A stretch of DNA of 34,856 bases from a virus: the IMG/VR virus record IMGVR_UViG_3300011248_000018, positions 1 to 34,856 of that record; one strand, given 5' to 3'. The notes below the pieces were generated by a model. It ran no database searches and was not told the origin of the DNA. It saw nothing but the letters and a program-made list of their open reading frames with translations. Shown here one piece after another: positions 6,971-21,959 of the stretch. Position 1 is the first letter of the stretch, and every line of letters begins with the position of its first letter. A program made the translations under genes and the position numbers.

Positions 6971-7509
6971 CACTCCTCCCCCTCGTCGTCAGTGGTGCGG
7001 AGGCGGGCGGCTTCATCAATTTCGCTCTTGAAAATCAAATCCAGAAACCTTGCACAATCTCGATAATCTTTAGTGTTTTCAGGGTTGTCCAATCGACCGC
7101 AGCAGACGCGAGCGTAAAGCATCGCATCTAAGTAGCCGCTGTCGTAGGCACTAGAGACACAATTATCGTTCTCCGGCATAGAGGGGGCGGGCACCGCAAC
7201 AGATGGCGGGGCGGGGTGGGTGTAATCATGCCCCATGCGATTAAGGTGCCGTTTCAGCATGTACAGTGGGATGTAACACTGATTGTCAGTGTCGGGGTAG
7301 AAGAAGCCCGATTCATCTTTCGCGTATCCAATTTGGGCGGGATTGGTGAAGCCAACATGAATGATCTCGCCAGCCTCCCCACCATTGGCGCTAAGGGCGG
7401 CTTGCATTTTGCGATGCAGGATAGAGCCTGCCCCGATGCTGTTCTGCCCGTGGTCACCATTCAGGTATTCCACGGCTTCCTGTAACGCCTCTCTCACTGA
7501 ATCACTCAT
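6970..7509 (-). CDS. Hypothetical protein (179 aa)
   Basis: The start MSDSVREALQ at 7509 is preceded by GAGGAGATAGAG, the same ribosome-site cassette found before several other genes here. The N-terminus is helical (residues 1-50, REALQEAVEYLNGD). The middle carries a beta-rich segment with DTDNQCYIPLYMLKRHL, and a Pro/Ala linker leads to a C-terminal helical segment with SAYDSGYLDAMLYARVC. No known catalytic motif is visible. It is likely an early-expressed accessory protein. Confidence 0.6.
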   Translation of the reverse strand: MSDSVREALQEAVEYLNGDHGQNSIGAGSILHRKMQAALSANGGEAGEIIHVGFTNPAQIGYAKDESGFFYPDTDNQCYIPLYMLKRHLNRMGHDYTHPAPPSVAVPAPSMPENDNCVSSAYDSGYLDAMLYARVCCGRLDNPENTKDYRDCARFLDLIFKSEIDEAARLRTTDDEGEE

Positions 7510-7560
7510 CTCTATCTCCTCAATCAGTCCGCCAACCATATCTCGGCGGCATTGTGTTGT

Positions 7561-7752
7561 CTAAGAACGTTTCGGACTAAAAATAACGGGCTTATAACTC
7601 GGGCAGTCCGCCCCGTCCGGCATCTGCATCACCGACACAGGCCGGTACGCCTCCACCTGCTTGCCTTCCTGGTATCGGCGGCAGGTGTCACGGCGCGGGC
7701 ACTTCGTCGACCGGCTCCAGCCCGTGCAGTATTGGCCGGGGACGCTATTCAC
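7561..7752 (-). CDS. Small Cys-rich basic protein
   Basis: This 63-aa frame most likely starts at the GTG at 7752, which overlaps the stop of the upstream gene (GGTGAATAG). It contains QYCTGW, KCPRRDTCRRY and DCPSY, so four cysteines that could hold a metal, in a basic context. The longer frame to 7809 would lie wholly within the upstream gene. The family is not recognised. Confidence 0.5.
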   Translation of the reverse strand: MNSVPGQYCTGWSRSTKCPRRDTCRRYQEGKQVEAYRPVSVMQMPDGADCPSYKPVIFSPKRS

Positions 7753-8254
7753 CGTACTTCTCCAGCCTCTCAACTTCGGCCTTAGCGTAGAACAGCACCT
7801 TTCTGGCATCCCGTAGCGCGTCGCTATGGCTGGCCCTGCCCTTGCGGTAGATGGCCCGGAATATCTCCCCGTCCTGCGCGTTTAGGTTCCGGTAGCTAAT
7901 GAGGTGCTGTAGCTCTGTGGCGCCTTCTGGTAGCTGGTAGTAGCTGGCTGTGCTGCCATCGCTCGTGTCGATAGTATCCGCCCCCACGCTGTACCGGTCT
8001 GCGTCCAGTTCGCTGTCGGGGTGGGTGTCGAGGGGGTCGCCATAGATGCGCCGATAGTCCGCCATGGGGATGCGGTAGTGGGTGATGGTCCCGCAGCCAG
8101 CGTCTTGGTTCCAGAGCCAATATCTGCCCAATGAGAGACCAGTTTTGTCCTCACCTCCATCTGCCAGTCTCACGGAAGTCTTGATGTCCTCAACTCCAAG
8201 CGGACACTCTTCACCCTCATGCTCAATCCACGGACTCCACTCAATATCACTCAT
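7745..8254 (-). CDS. Hypothetical protein with DUF3310-like C-terminal region
   Basis: This 169-aa protein has a beta-rich N-terminal half (RLADGG, LSLGRYWLWNQDAGCGTITHY) and a helical C-terminal part, about residues 104-169: YYQLPEGATELQHLI, GEIFRAIYRKGR and ALRDARKVLFYAKAEVERL. That order (Y, then ELQ/IEFI, then an R/K-G-rich helix, then a helix ending in ERL) resembles DUF3310-type domains of phage proteins linked to nucleotide metabolism. The match is by eye and moderate. Both ends overlap neighbouring genes. Confidence 0.55.
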   Translation of the reverse strand: MSDIEWSPWIEHEGEECPLGVEDIKTSVRLADGGEDKTGLSLGRYWLWNQDAGCGTITHYRIPMADYRRIYGDPLDTHPDSELDADRYSVGADTIDTSDGSTASYYQLPEGATELQHLISYRNLNAQDGEIFRAIYRKGRASHSDALRDARKVLFYAKAEVERLEKYGE

Positions 8255-10652: not shown

Positions 10653-11033
10653 TCAGAACGGGATGTCGTCGTCGAAGTCATCAGCAGGCACTGTGTTATG
10701 CGCTGGCTGCTGGCTGGACTGTTGCACGGGTTTCGCCTCGCTCTGCCCGCCACACAACCGAATCTTCTCAACGCGCAGCGTGTGATACGTCTTGCCGTTG
10801 TGTTCTTTCTCGCCCTGTTCGCCAGATACTGCTACAAGCTGCCCCTTCTTTAGGTAATCCACCAGCTTGCTTTCTGCCTGCTTCCCCCACAACGCGCAAT
10901 CAAACCACAGCGTCTGTTCACGATCACCAAAGCCGGACTTTCCCGCCACGGTGAAGTTGCACACAGCGGTGCCGCTTACGGTATTGGTGCGGCAATCCGC
11001 GCCCAGGTTTCCAATCACAGTCGTTACAATCAT
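10653..11033 (-). CDS. ssb: Single-stranded DNA-binding protein
   Basis: This 126-aa protein has the bacterial SSB layout: an OB fold at about residues 1-100 (VTTVIGNLGADC, then TLWFDCALWGKQAE, then GQLVAVSGE and YHTLRVEKIRL), a Gln/Ala linker, and the acidic tip DDFDDDIPF that recruits replication and repair partners. It is slightly shorter than E. coli SSB. The start at 11033 overlaps the upstream stop and has GAGG at good distance; a GTG three bases earlier is less likely. It should protect ssDNA during phage replication and recombination with the nearby exonuclease. Confidence 0.92.
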   Translation of the reverse strand: MIVTTVIGNLGADCRTNTVSGTAVCNFTVAGKSGFGDREQTLWFDCALWGKQAESKLVDYLKKGQLVAVSGEQGEKEHNGKTYHTLRVEKIRLCGGQSEAKPVQQSSQQPAHNTVPADDFDDDIPF

Positions 11034-11623
11034 CACATTACCTCGTCGTCGTTATCGTCAACCACCACAGGCGCGGCGGCTTCCAGTTTCGCCAATTGAT
11101 CGGCGGTTAGTTGCCCTGTCTTCTGGCATTGCGCGATAATCTGTTGCAGCGTCATCTCTCCTTGTTTCATCTTTTCAGCCATTACCGGGTAGGCTTTCTC
11201 GAATTTCTCATCCGGGTATTCCTGCGCGGTCACTTCAAGCAGTGGAACATGGTACGGCTCACGCTTCTGCCGGTTGATCGTTAGCGCGAACTGCATGCCC
11301 TTCGGGGGGATGTCGGACAGCGAACGGATACGAATGCCGCCAACTTCCTTGCCTGCGTACATTACAGTCGGCTCGAAGTACAGCTTTGCGCACTTACCGA
11401 TCCATTGGCTGCTGTCCTTTCCCCACGCGCCCGCCAAGATGCGCAGCATGCCTTTGCTGGGCTTCCATGGCCGGTTGTGGTCGCCATCGAAGTAAACGCT
11501 GACAGGCTGGTCACCCTTCTTTACTTGTACTTCACGGATGCGGATAACAGGCTCTGCGCCCATGATATCCACTGCGTTAAGCTGGTCGCTCTTGGCTTCC
11601 AGCGCGAACCCTACGTCAGTCAT
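11033..11623 (-). CDS. Conserved phage protein between exonuclease and SSB
   Basis: This 196-aa protein begins at an ATG with GAGGAGATAC upstream. The first 110 residues appear beta-rich with many basic residues (VIRIREVQVKKGDQPVSVYF, then FALTINRQKREPYHVPL). A helical part follows (EKMKQGEMTLQQIIAQCQKT), and the end is very acidic (VVVDDNDDEVM), like the tip of SSB proteins. The slot between a RecE-type exonuclease and SSB is where phages usually carry an annealing protein. I see no clear RecT/Erf/Beta signature, so a new annealing or ssDNA partner is only a guess. Confidence 0.65.
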   Translation of the reverse strand: MTDVGFALEAKSDQLNAVDIMGAEPVIRIREVQVKKGDQPVSVYFDGDHNRPWKPSKGMLRILAGAWGKDSSQWIGKCAKLYFEPTVMYAGKEVGGIRIRSLSDIPPKGMQFALTINRQKREPYHVPLLEVTAQEYPDEKFEKAYPVMAEKMKQGEMTLQQIIAQCQKTGQLTADQLAKLEAAAPVVVDDNDDEVM

Positions 11624-12462
11624 CAGTGTATCTCCTCAATCAGATCGTTTTCGTATTGCGCCAGCGCCCATGCCGGAAGTTCCAGCGGCTCATCTGTGCG
11701 CTCGTATCCTGGCCAGTCGTTCGTTTCCATGCACTCAGCGTACTGCTCAAGGTCTGCCATGGCCTCGTTGTGGCCGATAGTCAGTGACTCCCCGCCCAGC
11801 TCGTAGGGCATGGCGACGTGCGGCGGTTGCTCCTCAACTGCAAGGAACGTGAACGACTCCAGCGCCTTCCCGGTGGCCAACTCATAAACAAACCGATACC
11901 AAGCGTCCTGCACATGGTAACGATAGTTATAGACTGACTTTGCGAACGCATCCCGGCTGCTTTCCTGCGTCTTTTTCAGGTCAACCGCGTGACCGGCATA
12001 GGTCAGCAAGTCAAAGCGGCACTTAACCGCAACGCCGGTATTCGGGCACTCGGCAAACACGGACACCTCAGCCTCGCCCGCTGGCATGCTGTACTGGCTT
12101 CGCACGCTTTCCTGCATGCCTGCTACGTTGTCCGCTTCCTTGCCGGTTAGGACGTATTCCGGGTCATGCACCTTGCAGGCTTGCTTGTACTCGCTGGCGC
12201 GTCGGTCTTTCACGTCACGCAGCAACAGGTAATCAACTGAGAACCGCTCCGGCTCAAGAATGGCGCAGTGGATGGCGCTACCGATTGCCATGGCGCGGGT
12301 TGCTTCACGCTTTGCCCCGTACTGGTAATGCGCCGGGCTGCGGTGGATCAGATCAAGCCCTGATTTGCTGATTGCCGGGTGCGCGTGGTAATCGCTGTTC
12401 GGCATGCCCAGCACCACTGCCGGATAGCTGCCGTCCCAAGCTTCGTATTTGATTGGTTTCAT
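11623..12462 (-). CDS. RecE-like PD-(D/E)XK exonuclease (DUF3799 type)
   Basis: This 279-aa protein carries the RecE/exodeoxyribonuclease VIII pattern. YHAHPAISKSGLDLIHRSP lies at residues 25-43 and GSAIHCAILEPE at 61-72. The nuclease core is KCRFDLL (D151), then AVDLKKTQ (D161, K163), and YNYRYHVQDAWY supplies the Q185 region. Such enzymes chew one strand of a double-strand end to prepare annealing. It is first in the leftward operon, transcribed from the control region at 12463-12551, with a GGGAGGC ribosome site. Confidence 0.85.
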   Translation of the reverse strand: MKPIKYEAWDGSYPAVVLGMPNSDYHAHPAISKSGLDLIHRSPAHYQYGAKREATRAMAIGSAIHCAILEPERFSVDYLLLRDVKDRRASEYKQACKVHDPEYVLTGKEADNVAGMQESVRSQYSMPAGEAEVSVFAECPNTGVAVKCRFDLLTYAGHAVDLKKTQESSRDAFAKSVYNYRYHVQDAWYRFVYELATGKALESFTFLAVEEQPPHVAMPYELGGESLTIGHNEAMADLEQYAECMETNDWPGYERTDEPLELPAWALAQYENDLIEEIH

Positions 12463-12551: not shown

Positions 12552-12725
12552 ATGCTAACACCAGAAACCATCAAACGACGCCTACAGGACGCCAATCTAA
12601 AGGCAGTATCCGAAAGCGCGAACGTTCACTACAACGCCCTTTACCGGTTCGTCACAGGTATCACCGAGCGGCCATCGTATGAGTTGGTGCGCAAGCTTTC
12701 GGATTACCTGGAGTCCATCGAATGA
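12552..12725 (+). CDS. Small Cro/XRE-like HTH regulator
   Basis: This 57-aa protein is a bare helix-turn-helix: MLTPETIKRRLQDANLKAVS, then ESANVHYNALYRFVTG, then PSYELVRKLSDYLE. The second and third helices match the XRE/Cro type used by phage repressors. A strong ribosome site (AAAGGGGAAA) precedes the ATG, and its stop overlaps the helicase start (AATGA). It lies right beside the divergent control region, so it likely controls early transcription and itself. It has no peptidase or dimer domain of the CI type. Confidence 0.75.
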   Translation: MLTPETIKRRLQDANLKAVSESANVHYNALYRFVTGITERPSYELVRKLSDYLESIE

Positions 12726-14152
12726 TTCTACGCCCATACCAAGATGATCTAATCGACAAGGCACGGCAGGCGCTGCGAGTCAATCAGTCTGTCCTGATGC
12801 AGGCACCAACCGGGGCAGGCAAAACCGCGCTTACGGTTACGATGATGAAGAACGCAGCCGCGCAGGGTAAGCGTTCTTTTTTCTGCGTCCACCAGAACGA
12901 GCTACTACAGCAAACCGGAAAGGCGCTATGGAAGCAGCACCTTGAACACGGCATGGTGGCCGCCGGTAAGCGTGCATCGAAACTACCCGCGCAAGTAGCC
13001 AGCGTGCAAACACTGGTGCGCCGTCTGGATCAGTACGAGGAGCCAGACTTGATTATTATCGACGAGGCGCACAGGGCGGCGGCGGCAACGTACCTCAAGA
13101 TTCTTGAGGCATACCCCCGCGCCAAGGTGGTCGGGCTTACTGCGACGCCGCAACGGACAGACGGCAAGGGGCTGGCTGACATATTCCAATCGTTAATCGT
13201 TGGGCCTTCCGTTCGCCAGCTTATCGACGCCGGGTATCTATCTGACTATGAGATATTCGCGCCGCCGTCTATGTTCGACGCAACCGGCGTGCAGACTCGT
13301 GCCGGTGACTTCGCCAAGGAGCAGGCAGAGGCGGCGATGGATAAACCGACCATTACTGGCGATGCCGTGAACCACTACCGCAAGCTGGCCAAGGGCAAGC
13401 GGTGCGTCGTGATGTGTGTCGGCATCAAGCACGCCGATCACGTTGCCGAACAGTACCGGCAGGCAGGCATATCCGCTGAATCGCTCGACGGCACCATGAG
13501 TAATGCCGGACGCGAGGACGTGCTGCAACGGTTCGAGCGAGGGGAGACTTTGGTGCTGACAAACACGAACCTGTTAATCGAGGGTGTCGATATTCCGGCC
13601 ATCGAGGTGGTGCAGTGGTTGCGCCCAACACAGAGCCTTATTATCTGGATGCAGGGCGTGGGGCGAGGGCTTCGACCAGCACCGGGCAAGGATCGTCTGT
13701 TGTTGCTGGATCACGTCGGCAACGTCCATCGCCACGGTCTGCCAGACGACCCACGAGAGTGGTCACTAGAGGGCCGCAAGAAAGGAAAACGCAAGGCAAA
13801 CGATGAGCCGGACGTATCCATCCAGCAGTGCCAGTCATGCTATGCCGTGTTCCGGCCCGGCCCTTCAGTGTGCCCCAAGTGCGGTGCCCCTGTGCAGAAG
13901 CAACCGCAACGAGAGCTTGAGATTATCGAGGGCGAGCTGCAAAAGATCGACCTTGAAAGGGCACGAAAGGAACGCAAGCGGGAGCAGGGCGCGGCGCGGA
14001 CATTGCGCGAACTGGTGGCGCTGGGTATCCGTCGCGAGATGCGAAAACCTGGGGCATGGGCGGCAATCACGACCGCAAGCCGTGAAGGGCGCAAGCCAAC
14101 CCCTGCCGAATTCCAGCAGGCCAAACAGATTGAACGGGAGCTGAGGGGATGA
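12722..14152 (+). CDS. SF2 DEAH helicase with C-terminal zinc finger
   Basis: This 476-aa protein has all main superfamily-2 motifs: Walker A APTGAGKT (28-35), DEAH (114-117), motif III TATPQRTDG (140-148), TNTNLLIEGVDIP (280-292) and motif VI QGVGRGLRP (311-319). A Cys4 zinc finger follows (C370, C373, C384, C387), then a charged coiled tail. The architecture resembles phage helicases of the UvsW/SSL2 type. It would unwind or remodel DNA during replication with the PrimPol protein. The zinc finger may aid DNA binding. Confidence 0.88.
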   Translation: MILRPYQDDLIDKARQALRVNQSVLMQAPTGAGKTALTVTMMKNAAAQGKRSFFCVHQNELLQQTGKALWKQHLEHGMVAAGKRASKLPAQVASVQTLVRRLDQYEEPDLIIIDEAHRAAAATYLKILEAYPRAKVVGLTATPQRTDGKGLADIFQSLIVGPSVRQLIDAGYLSDYEIFAPPSMFDATGVQTRAGDFAKEQAEAAMDKPTITGDAVNHYRKLAKGKRCVVMCVGIKHADHVAEQYRQAGISAESLDGTMSNAGREDVLQRFERGETLVLTNTNLLIEGVDIPAIEVVQWLRPTQSLIIWMQGVGRGLRPAPGKDRLLLLDHVGNVHRHGLPDDPREWSLEGRKKGKRKANDEPDVSIQQCQSCYAVFRPGPSVCPKCGAPVQKQPQRELEIIEGELQKIDLERARKERKREQGAARTLRELVALGIRREMRKPGAWAAITTASREGRKPTPAEFQQAKQIERELRG

Positions 14153-14499
14153 ACCAAGAAACCGCGATCCAGCGCAGAATTATGATCTCCTTATCCGAGG
14201 CTGGCTGTACCATCTGGCGCAACGAGACCAGCGGCGCATGGGTAGGCAAGGTAATCCACCAAGCGGGCGACCAGGTAACGCTAACCAACGCCCGAATGAT
14301 TCGTTTCGGCCTCGCCGTCGGCTCCAGCGACATCATAGGCATAGCACCTGACGGGCGGTTCCTCGCCGTTGAGGTGAAGACACCCAAAGGCCGTGCTACC
14401 AAGGAACAGCTAACGTTCATCGAAGCCGTGCGCAACGCTGGCGGCATCGCAGGTATTGCGAGAAGCCCACAGGAAGCATTAGAGTTAATCGGCGGCTAG
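14149..14499 (+). CDS. VRR-NUC domain nuclease
   Basis: This 116-aa protein is a stand-alone VRR-NUC module of the PD-(D/E)XK superfamily. Visible parts are NQETAIQRR (E4) near the start, VGSSDIIGI (D61), FLAVEVKTPKG (E75, K77) and ATKEQLTFIEAVRNAGG (Q87). Such short proteins are junction-resolving or structure-specific nucleases and often sit beside SF2 helicases in phage genomes, as here with a 4-nt overlap. It probably processes branched replication intermediates. Confidence 0.87.
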   Translation: MNQETAIQRRIMISLSEAGCTIWRNETSGAWVGKVIHQAGDQVTLTNARMIRFGLAVGSSDIIGIAPDGRFLAVEVKTPKGRATKEQLTFIEAVRNAGGIAGIARSPQEALELIGG

Positions 14500-14573: not shown

Positions 14574-17231
14574 ATGACAACCAAAACAATAGACTGGTAC
14601 GCCCGCCGCTATACCGAGCTTTACGGATTCGCCCTTGTTCCCATCGAGCCAGGCCGCAAGTTCCCCAGCGTTAACGACTGGGGCAGCAAAACCATTACAG
14701 ACCCGGACGCAGCCGCGGATTTCTACAGCGAGCATGCAGACTGGAACATGGGCCTGGCTCTAGGCCCGTCCGGTCTGTGCAGCCTCGACATCGACTGCGA
14801 CGAATCGTTTGCCGTGGTACTGGACGAGTTCGGCATCCCCCCCGACGCGCTGGCCGAATACCCCACCATCCAAGGGTCCACCAAGGGGCGCCGGGTCATG
14901 TTCCGCGTGCCTGCCGGTGCCGACCTTCCCTACGCCAAACTCAACTGGCCTACTGAGGCAGACCCGACCAAGCGTTACACGGTATTCGAGCTGCGTGCGG
15001 CCACAGACGGTAAGGCGCGTCAGGACGTAGCCCCGCCGTCTATTCACCCAGACACCGGCAAGCCTTACCGCTGGATCGTTCAGCCGCCGAAACCCGGCAA
15101 CGAGTGGCCAGAGCCTCCCGGCTGGCTTCTGGCTATCTGGGGAGCGTGGGGCGACTTCAAGCCACAATTGGCGAGCGCCTGCCCGTGGGTGGACGATCCT
15201 GTTCCTCCAGCACCGAGCAAGCCCCCTCGTGAGCGCCAACAGGGAGCTAGCGTGATCGAGGAGTACACCAGCCGCCACGACCTACGCTCCGAGCTTGAGC
15301 GGTACGGATACAAGCGAATCGGTCGAAAGCGTTACCTTTCGCCACACACCACAACAGGGCTGCCGGGTGTCGTGCTATTCCCAGACGAAGAAACATGCTG
15401 GATACATCACGCAAGTGACCCGCTATGCAGCGAGGAGTCAGGCCAGCCGGTCAACGCTTTCGACCTGTTCTGCGAGTACGACCATGGCGGAGACGCTAGC
15501 AAGGCTGTCAAGGCTGCGGCTGATGCCATGGGCATGAAGCCGACGCACTCAGAGCGAGCCAAGCCGACCAAGGAAGCCGCCGAGCTGATGGCCAGCAATA
15601 CCGTTGATCCGACGCCAGACGCGTCGCCGCCTAAAGGCCCGTTCGTGGCTCTTGGCTATAGCGGAAACAGCTACTACTACCTGCCTCGCGGCACGGAGCA
15701 GGTGGCCGAGATACGCAGGGGGGCGCACACATCGCCCGCCGAGATGATGTCTCTCGCGCCCGTCGAGTGGTGGGATCACGCCTACCCCAAGGAGAAGGGA
15801 GGCTGCGACTGGCACACGGCTGCGTCGGCGTGCATGCGCATGTGCGAGGCACGGGGGATCTACAGCCCTGAGCGCGAGCGAGGCCGTGGCGCGTGGTACG
15901 ACGAAGGCCGCGCCGTACTTCACCTGGGCGACCGCTTGCTGGTGGACGGCCAAGCAACCGCAATCGCAGACCTTCGGAGCCGGTTCATCTATACCCGGCA
16001 GGCCCCCATGGAAACCGGCATGGACGCGGTGCCAGCTACAGCCGCCGACGCACAGGCGTTGCTGGCGATATTCGACGGCCTTAACTGGAGCAAGCCGGTT
16101 CACGCAAGGATGGCGGCTGGCTGGACGGTCCTTGCCCCGATCTGCGGGGCGCTCAAGTGGCGTCCTCACATCTGGCTAACGGCGCAACGGGGGGCTGGCA
16201 AGACATGGATTCAAGACAACATCATCGGCCCCATGCTGGGCGCAGGTGCCATGATCGTGCAGGGCAGCACCACTGAGGCTGGCATCCGTCAACGGCTCAA
16301 GCAGGACGCCAGGGCTATCGTGTTCGATGAGGCCGAAAGCGAGAACCAAGGCAGCCAGAAGCGCATGCAAACGGTTATCGAGCTGGCCAGACAGTCGAGC
16401 AGCGACAGTAGCGCGGAAATCGTGAAGGGCACGGCAGGGGGGCAAGGCATGGCGTTCCGTATGCGATCCATGTTCCTGCTTGGGTCGGTTAACGTGGCGT
16501 TGTCACAGGCCGCTGACGAAAGCCGGTTTTCGGTGCTGACTATTGAGGCACCAGACAAGACAACCGAGGAGATAGATCGATTCGACGCCTTCTCTGTTCA
16601 TGTCGGAAACACGTTGACCCCGGAATACTGTGCCGCTATCCGGGCGCGTGCGTATCGCCTCATGCCGGTGGTGCGGGATAACGCTAAGACACTGGCCAAG
16701 GCCGTTGCCGAGTTGCTTGGCAGTCAGCGTATCGGCGATCAGGTGGGCACACTGCTTGCCGGGGCATGGCTGCTCGAGTCCGACGAGCGCCTTTGCATGG
16801 ACAAGGCAAGGCAGTACGTCATGCCGCTGGACTTCTCAGACGCCAAGGAAGCTGAGCAGGTGAGCGATGAGGAATCCTTGCTGATGAAGATCATGCAGAC
16901 TCAAGTGCGTTTCGACTCCTCTCACCATGGCGCACTGACGCGGGCTATCGGTGAGATCGTGGACTGTGCCATGGGTCGCGGCGGGCTTGGCGAGACTAGC
17001 GCCAAGGAAGCCAATGACATACTAAGCCGGTACGGCATCAAGGTTGATGGTGACGCGCTTGTCTTCGCCAACACGCATACAGAGCTCGAGCGAGTGCTAC
17101 GTGACACTCCATGGGCGGCTGGATGGCGTCGAGTCCTGTGCCGGATACCTGGATCAATGCCGGAATTGAATCCGGTTCGGTTTGCTGGCACTCGGTCGCG
17201 GGCGGTTCGCGTGCCGTTGTCGTTTCTGTGA
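14574..17231 (+). CDS. Primase-polymerase fused to P-loop ATPase/helicase domain
   Basis: This 885-aa protein has an N-terminal PrimPol domain (about 1-190). It shows LDIDCD with metal-binding D72 and D74, QGSTKGRRVMFR and APPSIHPDTGK with H158, the usual AEP-primase signs. After a linker, a P-loop domain carries Walker A AQRGAGKT (537-544) and Walker B AIVFDEAE (581-588), in the style of DUF927/D5-type replicative ATPases. One protein could prime, extend and unwind. A 74-nt gap with AAGGA separates it from the nuclease gene. It is followed at once by a terminator and a repeat cluster that looks like its origin. No separate DNA polymerase gene is present. Confidence 0.88.
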   Translation: MTTKTIDWYARRYTELYGFALVPIEPGRKFPSVNDWGSKTITDPDAAADFYSEHADWNMGLALGPSGLCSLDIDCDESFAVVLDEFGIPPDALAEYPTIQGSTKGRRVMFRVPAGADLPYAKLNWPTEADPTKRYTVFELRAATDGKARQDVAPPSIHPDTGKPYRWIVQPPKPGNEWPEPPGWLLAIWGAWGDFKPQLASACPWVDDPVPPAPSKPPRERQQGASVIEEYTSRHDLRSELERYGYKRIGRKRYLSPHTTTGLPGVVLFPDEETCWIHHASDPLCSEESGQPVNAFDLFCEYDHGGDASKAVKAAADAMGMKPTHSERAKPTKEAAELMASNTVDPTPDASPPKGPFVALGYSGNSYYYLPRGTEQVAEIRRGAHTSPAEMMSLAPVEWWDHAYPKEKGGCDWHTAASACMRMCEARGIYSPERERGRGAWYDEGRAVLHLGDRLLVDGQATAIADLRSRFIYTRQAPMETGMDAVPATAADAQALLAIFDGLNWSKPVHARMAAGWTVLAPICGALKWRPHIWLTAQRGAGKTWIQDNIIGPMLGAGAMIVQGSTTEAGIRQRLKQDARAIVFDEAESENQGSQKRMQTVIELARQSSSDSSAEIVKGTAGGQGMAFRMRSMFLLGSVNVALSQAADESRFSVLTIEAPDKTTEEIDRFDAFSVHVGNTLTPEYCAAIRARAYRLMPVVRDNAKTLAKAVAELLGSQRIGDQVGTLLAGAWLLESDERLCMDKARQYVMPLDFSDAKEAEQVSDEESLLMKIMQTQVRFDSSHHGALTRAIGEIVDCAMGRGGLGETSAKEANDILSRYGIKVDGDALVFANTHTELERVLRDTPWAAGWRRVLCRIPGSMPELNPVRFAGTRSRAVRVPLSFL

Positions 17232-17241
17232 AATTGGCACT

Positions 17242-17280
17242 AGCGTGCCTGTTTTGCGGCTTAGGGTGGCACGCTTTTTC
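17242..17280 (+). terminator. Rho-independent terminator after the replication operon
   Basis: AGCGTGCC (17242-17249) and GGCACGCT (17268-17275) form a perfect 8-bp stem around an 18-nt loop, and TTTTTC follows. It lies 10 nt after the PrimPol stop. The stem also contains the GTGCC core seen in the downstream repeats, so it might double as a protein-binding site. Confidence 0.7.
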
Positions 17281-17284
17281 AAAA

Positions 17285-17320
17285 GTGTGCCGGGTAGTGT
17301 GCCGGGTAGTGTGCCACCTG
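17285..17320 (+). repeat. Three tandem 12-bp repeats (iteron-like)
   Basis: GTGTGCCGGGTA occurs twice and GTGTGCCACCTG once, starting at 17285, 17297 and 17309 with exact 12-bp spacing. About one helical turn plus 1.5 bp separates the units. The last unit carries the ACCTG ending found in the scattered copies further on. Tandem units of this kind are typical binding sites for replication initiators. Confidence 0.8.
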
Positions 17321-17367
17321 TTTTCCAATAAAATCAACAACTTACTCCAAAGTGTCACGAATGGCAC

Positions 17368-17408
17368 AATAAATAAATAAAGATACGTAAGAGATATATA
17401 TATAGGTA
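17368..17408. other. AT-rich stretch, possible DNA unwinding element
   Basis: A run of A and T with AATAAATAAATAAAG and GAGATATATATATAGG stands out from the GC-rich genome. It lies between the tandem repeats and the scattered copies. In iteron origins this is where the strands first open. The assignment depends on the origin call. Confidence 0.5.
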
Positions 17409-17709
17409 TAGGTGGCTATGGATGGGTATTTTTCTATTCTCTTACATGTCTATCAAACGAAAAAAAGTGTGCCAACCGTGCCACCTGACATAACTCGTTG
17501 ATTTGAAAGGAAAACAGGTGGCACAGTAGCTAAAAATAAGTGTGCCACCCGGCACAAAAGTGTGCCACCTAAGTGGTTGCTAACATGCTGGGCCGCGTCG
17601 TTGCTGGTTTCTCGCTGAATATAAAGTGTGCCACCCAAAGATGACCACCCAACGCCGAGCATCGGAATAACCGCCGCCCCATCCATTCCAAAACGATCTA
17701 TAAATCCCC

Positions 17710-17738
17710 GTGACAGCATCATGCCCGGATGGCATAGT
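17710..17738 (+). promoter_or_regulatory. Candidate promoter for the small-gene operon
   Basis: GTGACA (17710-17715), a 17-bp spacer and CATAGT (17733-17738) lie about 28 nt before the first gene. An inverted repeat ATGCC-CGGAT-GGCAT (17721-17735) overlaps the spacer and -10 box and could be an operator. The rightward direction fits the operon that follows. Confidence 0.5.
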
Positions 17739-17765
17739 TAGCCCATCGAAGCGAAACGTAGAGAG

Positions 17766-17930
17766 ATGGGACGAACCGACATGAGCATGAACGAATTGGT
17801 AAAGCAGTCACTCGAAACCGCCGCCGACATTATGGGCATTTCTTTTGACGAAGCGGCCAACAGCCCCGAAGCGCAAGAAATGGCGTTCAAACTGAGCTGC
17901 GCCGCCATGGCAGAACAGGCCGCCCACTAA
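17766..17930 (+). CDS. Small hypothetical protein (54 aa)
   Basis: The frame reads MGRTDMSMNELVKQSLETAA, then a helical Ala-rich stretch to the end (AAMAEQAAH). GTAGAGAG precedes the ATG at 17766; the ATG at 17781 is an alternative start giving 49 aa. It is the first gene of the operon after the candidate origin. It could be a small helical regulator, but there is no motif to say so. Confidence 0.5.
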   Translation: MGRTDMSMNELVKQSLETAADIMGISFDEAANSPEAQEMAFKLSCAAMAEQAAH

Positions 17931-20128: not shown

Positions 20129-20563
20129 ATGACTGAATCAAAGGCCATTGGCCGTCCATCCAAGTACACAGAAGAGCTTCAAGCGAAGGCAGACGAGTAT
20201 CTGTATCAGCTTGAAGGTCTCGGCCATGTGGTGCCGTCAAGAGCTGGCCTGTGCTGTTATCTTGGTATTAGCCGGTCTACCAGCTACGAATGGGCAGAGT
20301 CCTATCCGGCGTTTTCGGACACGTTAGAGGCGGTCGAGATCATGCAGGAGCATCTGGCGCTGAACGGAGGGCTGGCAGGCAACCTGAATAGCACCATTGT
20401 GAAGCTGGTTCTAGCCAACCACGGATACTCTGATCGCATCGCTCAGGAGCATACCAGCCCTGACGGCTCAATGACGCCAAAACCCGGCATCGACACCAGT
20501 CAGCTATCCGACGGCGCTCTTGAGGAGCTAATGCGTGCCCGCCGCGATCAAGCTGAGCAATGA
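20129..20563 (+). CDS. terS: Terminase small subunit
   Basis: This 144-aa protein begins AIGRPSKYTEELQAKADEYL, the common start of phage small terminases, followed by a DNA-binding HTH (SRAGLCCYLGISRSTSYEWA). The region EHLALNGGLAGNLNSTIVKL, then VLANHGYSD, is typical of this family, which recognises the packaging site and forms a ring. No Shine-Dalgarno sequence is visible before the ATG. Its end overlaps the large subunit start by 29 nt. Confidence 0.88.
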   Translation: MTESKAIGRPSKYTEELQAKADEYLYQLEGLGHVVPSRAGLCCYLGISRSTSYEWAESYPAFSDTLEAVEIMQEHLALNGGLAGNLNSTIVKLVLANHGYSDRIAQEHTSPDGSMTPKPGIDTSQLSDGALEELMRARRDQAEQ

Positions 20564-21959
20564 TGATTGGCTGAGCATTGAGCGAGAGTACTGCTCCCGG
20601 TCCCTCGCCAACTTTGTCAAAGAGGCATGGCATGTTCTGGAGCCTGGCCAGCCATATATCCATGGGTGGCATGTAGATGCGATTTGCGATCATCTTGAGG
20701 CCATCACATACGGCGACCTTGCCCGCCTACTAATCAACATCCCCCCCGGCACGATGAAATCAACGCTAACCAGTGTGTTCTGGCCTGCGTGGGAGTGGGG
20801 GCCAAAGAATCTGCCGCACACCAGATTTATCGGGGCGTCCCATGAGCAGGGTCTGGCAGTCAGGGACACCCGTAAGATGCGCAATCTCATCATGTCTGAC
20901 TGGTATCAGGCCCGCTGGCCACTGGCGCTTACCAGTGATCAGAATCAAAAGACCTTCTACGAAAACGAAAGCACCGGATTCAGGCAGGCGTGTGCCGTTG
21001 CGTCAATGACCGGTAAGCGCGGCGACAGGGTGGTATGGGATGATCCGCACAGCGTGGAGGCGGCATTGTCAGATGCGCACAGGGAAACAGCCCTGCGAGT
21101 TTTCCAAGAAACACTCCCTACTCGACTCAACAACCCGGACAGCAGCGCCATCGTGATCGTTATGCAGCGCCTTCACGAGACGGACGTGTCAGGGCACATC
21201 CTTGAGAGCGACCTTGGGTATGAGCATCTATGCCTGCCCATGGAATACGAGCCTGAGCGGCACTGCACTACGTCCATTGGGTTCAGCGATCCAAGAAAAG
21301 AGGAGGGTGAGCTGCTGTTCCCTGGTCGGTTCAGCAGGGAGACTATCGACCGGGACAAAAAGGTCATGGGCAGTATGGCGGTTGCCGGTCAATTCCAGCA
21401 GCGCCCAGCGCCCCGTGGTGGCGGGTTCTTTGATTGGCAAAAGCTGGAAATAGTCAATGCCGCGCCAGCCAACATGAAGAAGGTTGTCCGCTACTGGGAT
21501 AAGGCCGGGACGGATGGCGGCGGGGCGTACACGGCTGGCGTCAAGATGGGGCTGACCAATGATGGGATGTGGTATATCCTCGATGTTGTTCGCGGCCAAT
21601 GGGGCGCGGCAGAGCGTGAACGCACTATCCGGCAGACGGCAGAACTGGACGGCAAGAGCGTACAGATATGGATTGAGCAAGAGCCAGGGTCTGGAGGCAA
21701 GGAATCCGCCGAGTCAACTGTTAGAAATCTGGCCGGTTTCACCATAAAGGCAGAAAGGGCGACCGGGGACAAGGCAGTCAGAGCCGAGCCGTATGCTGTG
21801 CAGGTTGAGGCTGGAAACGTGAAGGTGGTAAAAGGCCCATGGAATCAGGCGTTGATTGAAGAGCACAAGACTTTCCCGGTGGGCAAGTACAAGGATCAGA
21901 TCGATGCATCAGGCGGGGCGTTTAACAAGCTGGCCGCGCCTGGATTTGTATTCGCATAG
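20535..21959 (+). CDS. terL: Terminase large subunit (packaging ATPase/nuclease)
   Basis: This 474-aa protein starts at a GTG with GAGGAG seven bases upstream. The ATPase has Walker A INIPPGTMKST (about 67-77) and Walker B DRVVWDDPHS. The C-terminal RNase H-like nuclease has VVRYWDKAGTDGGGAYTAG, then WIEQEPGSGGKES. These are the usual signs of terminases that cut and pump DNA into proheads with the portal. The length is normal for the family. It couples with the small subunit and the portal gene further on. Confidence 0.95.
   Translation: MPAAIKLSNDDWLSIEREYCSRSLANFVKEAWHVLEPGQPYIHGWHVDAICDHLEAITYGDLARLLINIPPGTMKSTLTSVFWPAWEWGPKNLPHTRFIGASHEQGLAVRDTRKMRNLIMSDWYQARWPLALTSDQNQKTFYENESTGFRQACAVASMTGKRGDRVVWDDPHSVEAALSDAHRETALRVFQETLPTRLNNPDSSAIVIVMQRLHETDVSGHILESDLGYEHLCLPMEYEPERHCTTSIGFSDPRKEEGELLFPGRFSRETIDRDKKVMGSMAVAGQFQQRPAPRGGGFFDWQKLEIVNAAPANMKKVVRYWDKAGTDGGGAYTAGVKMGLTNDGMWYILDVVRGQWGAAERERTIRQTAELDGKSVQIWIEQEPGSGGKESAESTVRNLAGFTIKAERATGDKAVRAEPYAVQVEAGNVKVVKGPWNQALIEEHKTFPVGKYKDQIDASGGAFNKLAAPGFVFA

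Follow-up and report, generated by a model that had tools for sequence, protein, structure and literature searches.

Introduction

The initiators of classical iteron plasmids are not helicases and depend on DnaA and DnaB. An iteron origin behind the gene of a self-loading initiator helicase is also an already known kind of origin. The alpha protein of phage P4 is described as a protein that binds its origin repeats, unwinds and primes (PMC4234260). Rep of the Staphylococcus aureus pathogenicity islands (SaPI) and Cch2 of the staphylococcal cassette chromosome (SCC) reportedly bind iterons just downstream of their own genes via their C-terminal domains, SaPI Rep apparently in the form of two hexamers (PMC7581432). 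Stem-loop origins have been proposed for pRN1 and phage BIP-1, that of pRN1 being a 100-bp stem-loop without iterons (PMC4234260), and in NrS-1 the 8-nt site is present in just two copies (PMC7102993). Here we describe a repeat array in a virus contig of 34,856 nucleotides (IMG/VR record IMGVR_UViG_3300011248_000018), the whole of which is called the window below. The array lies in a gene-free gap at positions 17232-17765, directly behind the gene of an 885-amino-acid (aa) primase-helicase. Judging from the sequence and its comparison with relatives, this gap is very probably the replication origin of the phage and the adjacent protein its initiator.

A clustered repeat array with dyad symmetry

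The original prediction of an origin described at least seven copies of GTGTGCC, three of them in perfect 12-bp tandem, together with GTGCCACCTG and its inverse, in a gene-free gap with an AT-rich stretch, and all of these features were recovered. Seven GTGTGCC copies were counted in the gap (17285, 17297, 17309, 17467, 17540, 17560 and 17626), of which the first three form the exact tandem, and GTGCCACCTG occurs at 17311 (+), 17478 (+) and 17515 (-). The AT content reaches 66-72% in 50-bp blocks across about 17325-17474. Between the end of the 885-aa gene (17231) and the next likely start (an ATG at 17766) there are no plausible genes, and on both strands the mechanical open reading frames (ORFs) found there run across the repeats. 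Inverted and degenerate iteron copies beyond those first reported were found at 17267 (-), 17353 (-), 17362 (-), 17476 (+), 17519 (-) and 17550 (-).

The over-representation of GTGTGCC in the window is modest (12 copies versus 6.7 expected), as would suit chance or compositional repeats without function. However, the repeats are clustered. Within the window, GTGCCACC is confined to 17265-17635, with seven copies there against 1.76 expected for the whole window (shuffle mean), and none of 100 shuffles reached seven. In repeat density, the 420 bp that follow the stop codon exceeded each of 200 shuffles, and their rank among the contig's stretches of that length was 0.002. Because this clustering and the held-out comparative tests described below exceed expectation, the probability of a chance array is practically negligible. 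A second contig (L001) with 99.96% identity over 11.1 kb has an identical gap; it represents the same virus and was therefore rejected as independent confirmation.

The array is organized around a dyad (Table 1). The centre of DNA complementarity, counting 28 bp outside the iterons, lies at 17417.5 and matches the point about which the inner iteron pairs are inverted (17418). A genome-wide complementarity scan revealed one other equally strong centre, inside the primase gene, so that the dyad on its own is suggestive, and the weight of this evidence is the agreement between the DNA centre and the iteron centre. The same symmetry could mean that recognition takes place on a single-strand hairpin, that is, a stem-loop origin, rather than on double-stranded iterons. 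The 38-nt arms are 84% complementary, and pRN1 replication requires a stem-loop behind its PrimPol-helicase gene (PMC4234260). However, the arms are 146 nt apart, the element that recurs in relatives consists of many short iterons at set spacings with copies often outside the arms, and exact mirror symmetry is seen in about a third of the arrays only, which makes a hairpin quite improbable.

Array geometry among relatives of the helicase

Relatives of the C-terminal half of the protein, taken from IMG/VR and bacterial genomes, comprised hundreds of virus contigs, prophages and plasmids, with at least about 550 hits in IMG/VR. The array test was motif-free, searching for a significantly repeated 8-mer from 40 bp before to 440 bp after the stop codon (p-value floor 1/61). 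The non-redundancy threshold was 80% DNA identity across the end of the gene, and related loci remain in the counts. Significant arrays were found in 32 of 55 non-redundant loci of set 1, 29 of 34 held-out viral loci and 18 of 43 loci on bacterial genome contigs, with about 5% expected.

The geometry frozen on set 1 requires opposite copies 82-116 bp apart, with a second copy 7-10 bp further out on one side or both, and its null was generated by permuting the spacings and strands of each array. This inner dyad was present in 17 of the 29 held-out viral arrays (6.4 expected, standard deviation 2.1) and in 10 of the 18 genome-contig arrays (4.1 expected). Doubling on both sides was seen in 8 held-out viral arrays versus 0.6 expected and in 5 genome-contig arrays versus 0.4 expected. 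Among the relatives' cores with this geometry, the AT content exceeded that of the gene in 46 out of 46 (mean 62% versus 43%). In phage phi1422 the array is a perfect mirror, with spacings of 9, 10, 14, 64 and 8 on one side of a central 89 and 8, 64, 14, 10 and 9 on the other.

The repeat motif itself varies among relatives (GTGTGCCA, CTGTAACA, GCGTAACA, CGGTAACA, CGTCAGAA, TTGCGGAC and others), and TGTGCC-type repeats are kept by only some of the nearest relatives of the window (L020, L021, L028 and L029). The gap is conserved among relatives in array position and inner geometry but not in motif. The N-terminus of the relatives also varies, being PrimPol, CHC2 or other zinc ribbons with Toprim, or DUF6371, and iteron arrays are found behind the Toprim/CHC2 and primase-less versions of the helicase as well, which indicates that the array travels with the helicase and not with the primase. 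As far as the compared sequences go, the array, its dyad, its position and its geometry are conserved independently of primase type, while the motif changes between phages.

The same layout accompanies a second helicase family. In the PrimPol phages KT1 and LPPA56 the helicase is of the DUF5906/Pox_D5 type and shows no homology to the window helicase detectable with a hidden Markov model (HMM). These phages resemble the window in their PrimPol region (~38% identical) and 3' origin layout, but have a different iteron and a less AT-rich core (43-56%). The layout was found right after the gene in 18 of the 21 sequences examined from PrimPol + DUF5906 phages, including KT1, LPPA56 and most of their IMG/VR relatives; many of these sequences are near-identical and do not count as independent cases. 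As a positive control, the method recovered the annotated type 1 repeats of P4, GGTGAACA, in crr immediately behind alpha.

The helicase and its array on plasmids

Linear Arsenophonus plasmids of 7.9-8.2 kb encode a primase-less relative of the helicase (616 aa; 29% identity, E=1e-73) as their only recognisable replication gene. Directly behind it are arrays with copies oriented ++++ -- to the left and ++ ---- to the right of the centre, which score highest among all arrays on the plasmid. In one example, TTGTTACC occurs at 50, 62, 74 and 86 (+), 131 and 139 (-), 225 and 233 (+), and 293, 305, 317 and 329 (-). These arrays share the left-hand pattern of the window, a 12-bp tandem with inverted inner pairs. 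Since such plasmids persist with the helicase relative as their only candidate replicon, they provide the strongest indirect evidence that gene and array constitute a replicon. Taken with the comparison of relatives and the P4 control, they strongly support the origin first proposed for the gap. Its description as plasmid-style holds in that relatives with arrays reside on ~8-kb linear plasmids; it does not hold for the machinery, as the Pfam scan of the window found no Rep_3-type domain and no DnaA box was found in the gap.

The plasmids also bear on a regulatory reading, in which the repeats would be operators through which the protein or a repressor controls transcription, either of the primase-helicase operon or of genes to its right. 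Iteron arrays often autoregulate, and promoter-like and terminator-like matches in the gap slightly exceed those in shuffles. However, the array is behind the gene rather than before it, an AT-rich core of ~100 bp with inverted pairs on either side recurs irrespective of which genes come next, and the primase-less plasmid versions retain the array. We therefore consider operators an unlikely explanation, and the array may have a regulatory side-role. Partition (centromere) and packaging sites likewise carry short repeats, and ParB-like proteins are encoded by the relatives PY223 and Mwe-JY13. However, the scanned ORFs of the window yielded neither ParA nor ParB, the terminase genes (20129-21959) are 3 kb from the array, and the helicase gene is followed by the array on plasmids and in phages whose other genes are unrelated; the probability of such a site is very low.

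One linear Arsenophonus plasmid has an annotated protelomerase. Small Arsenophonus plasmids (L280, 1262-3112 and 6440-8005; L281; L284), comprising linear records of 7.9-8.3 kb and one circular record of 11.6 kb, carry the primase-less helicase relative together with a terminase small subunit, a protelomerase gene (ResT/TelK domain) or both, and are apparently N15-like mini-replicons of phage origin. The 41-kb plasmid pP24_g of Phaeobacter inhibens (L283) carries a terminase, the helicase relative followed by a weak array, and a CHC2 primase split off as a separate gene, and looks like a phage-plasmid.

The proposed initiator and neighbouring genes

The 885-aa protein consists of a PrimPol domain (residues 10-178), a superfamily 3 (SF3)/AAA+-like helicase (residues ~355-750) with the Walker A motif RGAGKT, and a C-terminal domain (residues ~750-885). 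The PrimPol domain is a full-length match to Pfam PF09250 (E=4.5e-22) and contains SLDID and PSIH, which we take to be the catalytic motifs (DxD and sxH) of archaeo-eukaryotic primase (AEP) PrimPols. Residues 331-885 matched no family in the Pfam scan, including DUF927, D5_N, DUF5906 and Pox_D5, and are 24-41% identical to proteins of cultured phages; residues 331-883 match phrog_35358 (E=5.8e-132), and phrog_21086 also matches. The AlphaFold (AF2) model has a predicted local distance difference test score (pLDDT) of 83. Its Foldseek matches in the PDB are NrS-1 CTR (6k9c; E=2e-7, the best match), SCCmec Cch (5dgk; E=4e-7), SaPI PriRep1 (7pds; E=9e-6), vaccinia D5, monkeypox E5 and AsfvPrimPol. 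On this model the helicase belongs to the hexameric SF3/AAA+ initiator-helicase group, and because the template-modelling scores (TM-scores) are low, its relation to Cch and PriRep1 is a distant one.

The replication module also includes a superfamily 2 (SF2) helicase and a VRR-NUC nuclease (Table 1). The helicase gene is likewise upstream of the primase gene in phages PY223, phi1422, ST4 and Jeremy, and the VRR-Nuc gene is directly before it in ST4 and Jeremy. A leftward operon (10653-12462, -) is probably a recombination module; besides a single-strand DNA-binding protein (SSB), it encodes a protein resembling exonuclease VIII (DUF3799) and an uncharacterised member of phrog_11517. In agreement with the original prediction, no DNA polymerase besides the PrimPol was detected among the scanned ORFs of the window, on a contig that is possibly incomplete. 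The replication genes and iterons may, as first suggested, make a self-contained replicon, but a host polymerase is the default expectation. Near the replication module of two relatives are ParB-like genes (L006, Bordetella phage PY223, 8508-9434; L014, Microcystis phage Mwe-JY13, 10155-11241). In Synechococcus phage S-H1 (L008), an annotated DNA polymerase III beta subunit (sliding clamp; 7103-8152) lies two genes downstream of the primase-helicase, which hints at the use of a Pol III-type polymerase.

Table 1 Features of the proposed origin and replication module in the window.
Feature	Position	Strand	Basis
Single-strand DNA-binding protein (SSB)	10653-11036	-	phrog_44 E=1.3e-28
SF2 helicase of the replication module	12722-14152	+	Pfam ResIII E=1.6e-24; phrog_16 E=3e-99
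VRR-NUC nuclease of the same module	14149-14499	+	Pfam VRR_NUC E=4.5e-8
885-aa primase-helicase, proposed initiator	14574-17231	+	Pfam, PHROG, AF2/Foldseek
Gene-free gap with proposed replication origin	17232-17765	.	Repeat density versus shuffles and other stretches
Terminator-like hairpin just 3' of the primase-helicase gene, GGCACTAGCGTGCC and T-rich tail	17236-17249	+	Consensus match only
Outlying iteron copy GCGTGCCA	17267-17274	-	
Left outer triplet of iterons in exact 12-bp tandem (17285, 17297, 17309)	17285-17316	+	
Left arm of 38-nt dyad, 84% complementary to 17491-17528	17307-17344	+	
Left inner iteron pair, copies 9 bp apart	17353-17369	-	
Left inner degenerate copy TCGTGACA, 3 mismatches	17353-17360	-	Read directly from sequence
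Left inner copy TTGTGCCA, 1 mismatch to GTGTGCCA	17362-17369	-	
AT-rich core, 97 bp, between inner pairs; proposed DNA-unwinding element	17370-17466	.	66-72% AT
Right inner iteron pair, GTGTGCCA at 17467 and CCGTGCCA at 17476, 9 bp apart	17467-17483	+	
Right arm of 38-nt dyad, includes iteron 17519-17526 (-)	17491-17528	-	
Right outer iterons (17540+, 17550-, 17560+, 17626+)	17540-17633	+	

Observations that weigh against an origin

Several observations weigh against an origin at this position or against its proposed initiator. GC skew, named in the original prediction as a check, has its minimum outside it, at 12,701, and gives it no support; this minimum coincides with the switch in gene direction, and we set GC skew aside as uninformative. 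Owing to a degenerate inner copy (3 mismatches), the window's own layout escapes the automatic geometry call; its exact-mirror p-value is 0.060. Among relatives, about 40% of the set-1 loci and most genome-contig loci have no significant array directly after the gene. The array is displaced in at least eight of the viral loci lacking one at the stop codon, upstream of the gene in Acjo_20 and 0.25-4.4 kb downstream in others, and other loci show none. The exact mirror test was passed by 26 of the 79 significant arrays, and outer iterons are not mirror-oriented in some relatives; exact symmetry was thus dropped as a family rule and the claim limited to the inner dyad. Co-variation of motif and protein is weak (partial rho at most 0.20, highest at residues 812-877). 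The C-terminal domain has no PDB match by Foldseek (best E=0.48), while the C-terminal 196 residues are modelled at pLDDT 95. Because this confident model matches no solved structure, DNA binding by the C-terminal domain is suggested by analogy with SaPI Rep and Cch2. A winged-helix identity was considered, as the order helix-helix-hairpin fits, and was rejected since Foldseek gave no support. Helical quantisation of the outer spacing was also rejected, the signal being weak and not independent.

Displaced arrays with related motifs are located at 3060-3540 in L011, 11100-11580 in L012, 7800-8280 in L161 and 6780-7260 in L114. A dense direct repeat of the TTGCAGCG type, with 21 copies in 480 bp, occurs at about 7800-8280 in L023, 1.1 kb behind the primase-helicase gene, and is unlike the iterons at gene ends.

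Proposed mechanism and significance

By analogy with P4 alpha and its ori-crr and with the Rep-ori systems of SaPI and SCC elements, the gap is best read as an origin of the theta type, to which the adjacent self-loading helicase would bind. We infer iteron binding, loading of two rings, melting and bidirectional forks. The C-terminal part of the protein would bind the GTGTGCCA-type iterons that follow its gene. Two opposed helicase rings would sit on the inverted inner pairs, one on each side of the 97-bp AT-rich core, with the outer iterons adding capacity or control. The rings would then melt the core, load onto single strands and move apart. The PrimPol domain would make the first primers, and elongation would be carried out by PrimPol or, more likely, by a host polymerase.

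More tentatively, and at slightly less than an even chance, a superfamily of initiator helicases from phages and plasmids, with an interchangeable or absent primase, may use one fixed origin blueprint, consisting of inverted pairs 82-116 bp apart, a meltable core and a drifting iteron. Spacing and inversion would specify two opposed rings and hence bidirectional initiation, as for SV40 large T or papillomavirus E1. As far as the open-licence literature showed, three things are new: the dyad geometry stays fixed while the motif drifts, this geometry extends through a helicase family that has no name and whose primases are exchangeable, and it is shared by two helicase families and by small linear plasmids. 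The origins of most uncultured phages are unknown, and a fixed layout would allow their prediction behind this helicase family; if true, the blueprint would be a general rule for this purpose. It would also explain one replication module with swapped primases common to phages, prophages and small linear plasmids, and it raises the testable question of whether a set distance between inverted iteron pairs positions two helicase rings.

Comparison with known replication systems

Like the classical iteron plasmids (RK2, pSC101, P1, RctB), the window has tandem iterons beside an AT-rich stretch, but it lacks a DnaA box and its proposed initiator is itself a helicase. P4 alpha is closer in that a primase is fused to an SF3-type helicase and iterons (crr) follow immediately behind the gene. 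The 8-nt type 1 repeats of crr occur in both orientations, paired at a distance of 9 bp and followed after another 43 bp by an inverted copy, and resemble the motifs of many relatives (GGTAACAA, CGGTAACA). However, P4 alpha has a Toprim primase and a D5/Pox_D5/DUF5906 helicase, and the HMM of the window helicase family matched only a 22-residue P-loop stretch in it (E=0.03). In P4, ori1 is 4.7 kb from crr, which is a direct 120-bp repeat, whereas the window has one compact dyad around an AT core; no separate ori1 and crr were seen there, all GTGCCACC copies being in one gap. NrS-1 and pRN1 ORF904 share with the window a PrimPol and an SF3-like helicase in one chain, and the proposed origin is next to the gene in pRN1 and mid-genome in NrS-1. 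The SaPI Rep-ori and SCCmec Cch2 systems match the window in having an iteron array directly downstream of the helicase gene. They differ from it in sequence family and repeat, and a PrimPol fused at the N-terminus is a feature of the window.
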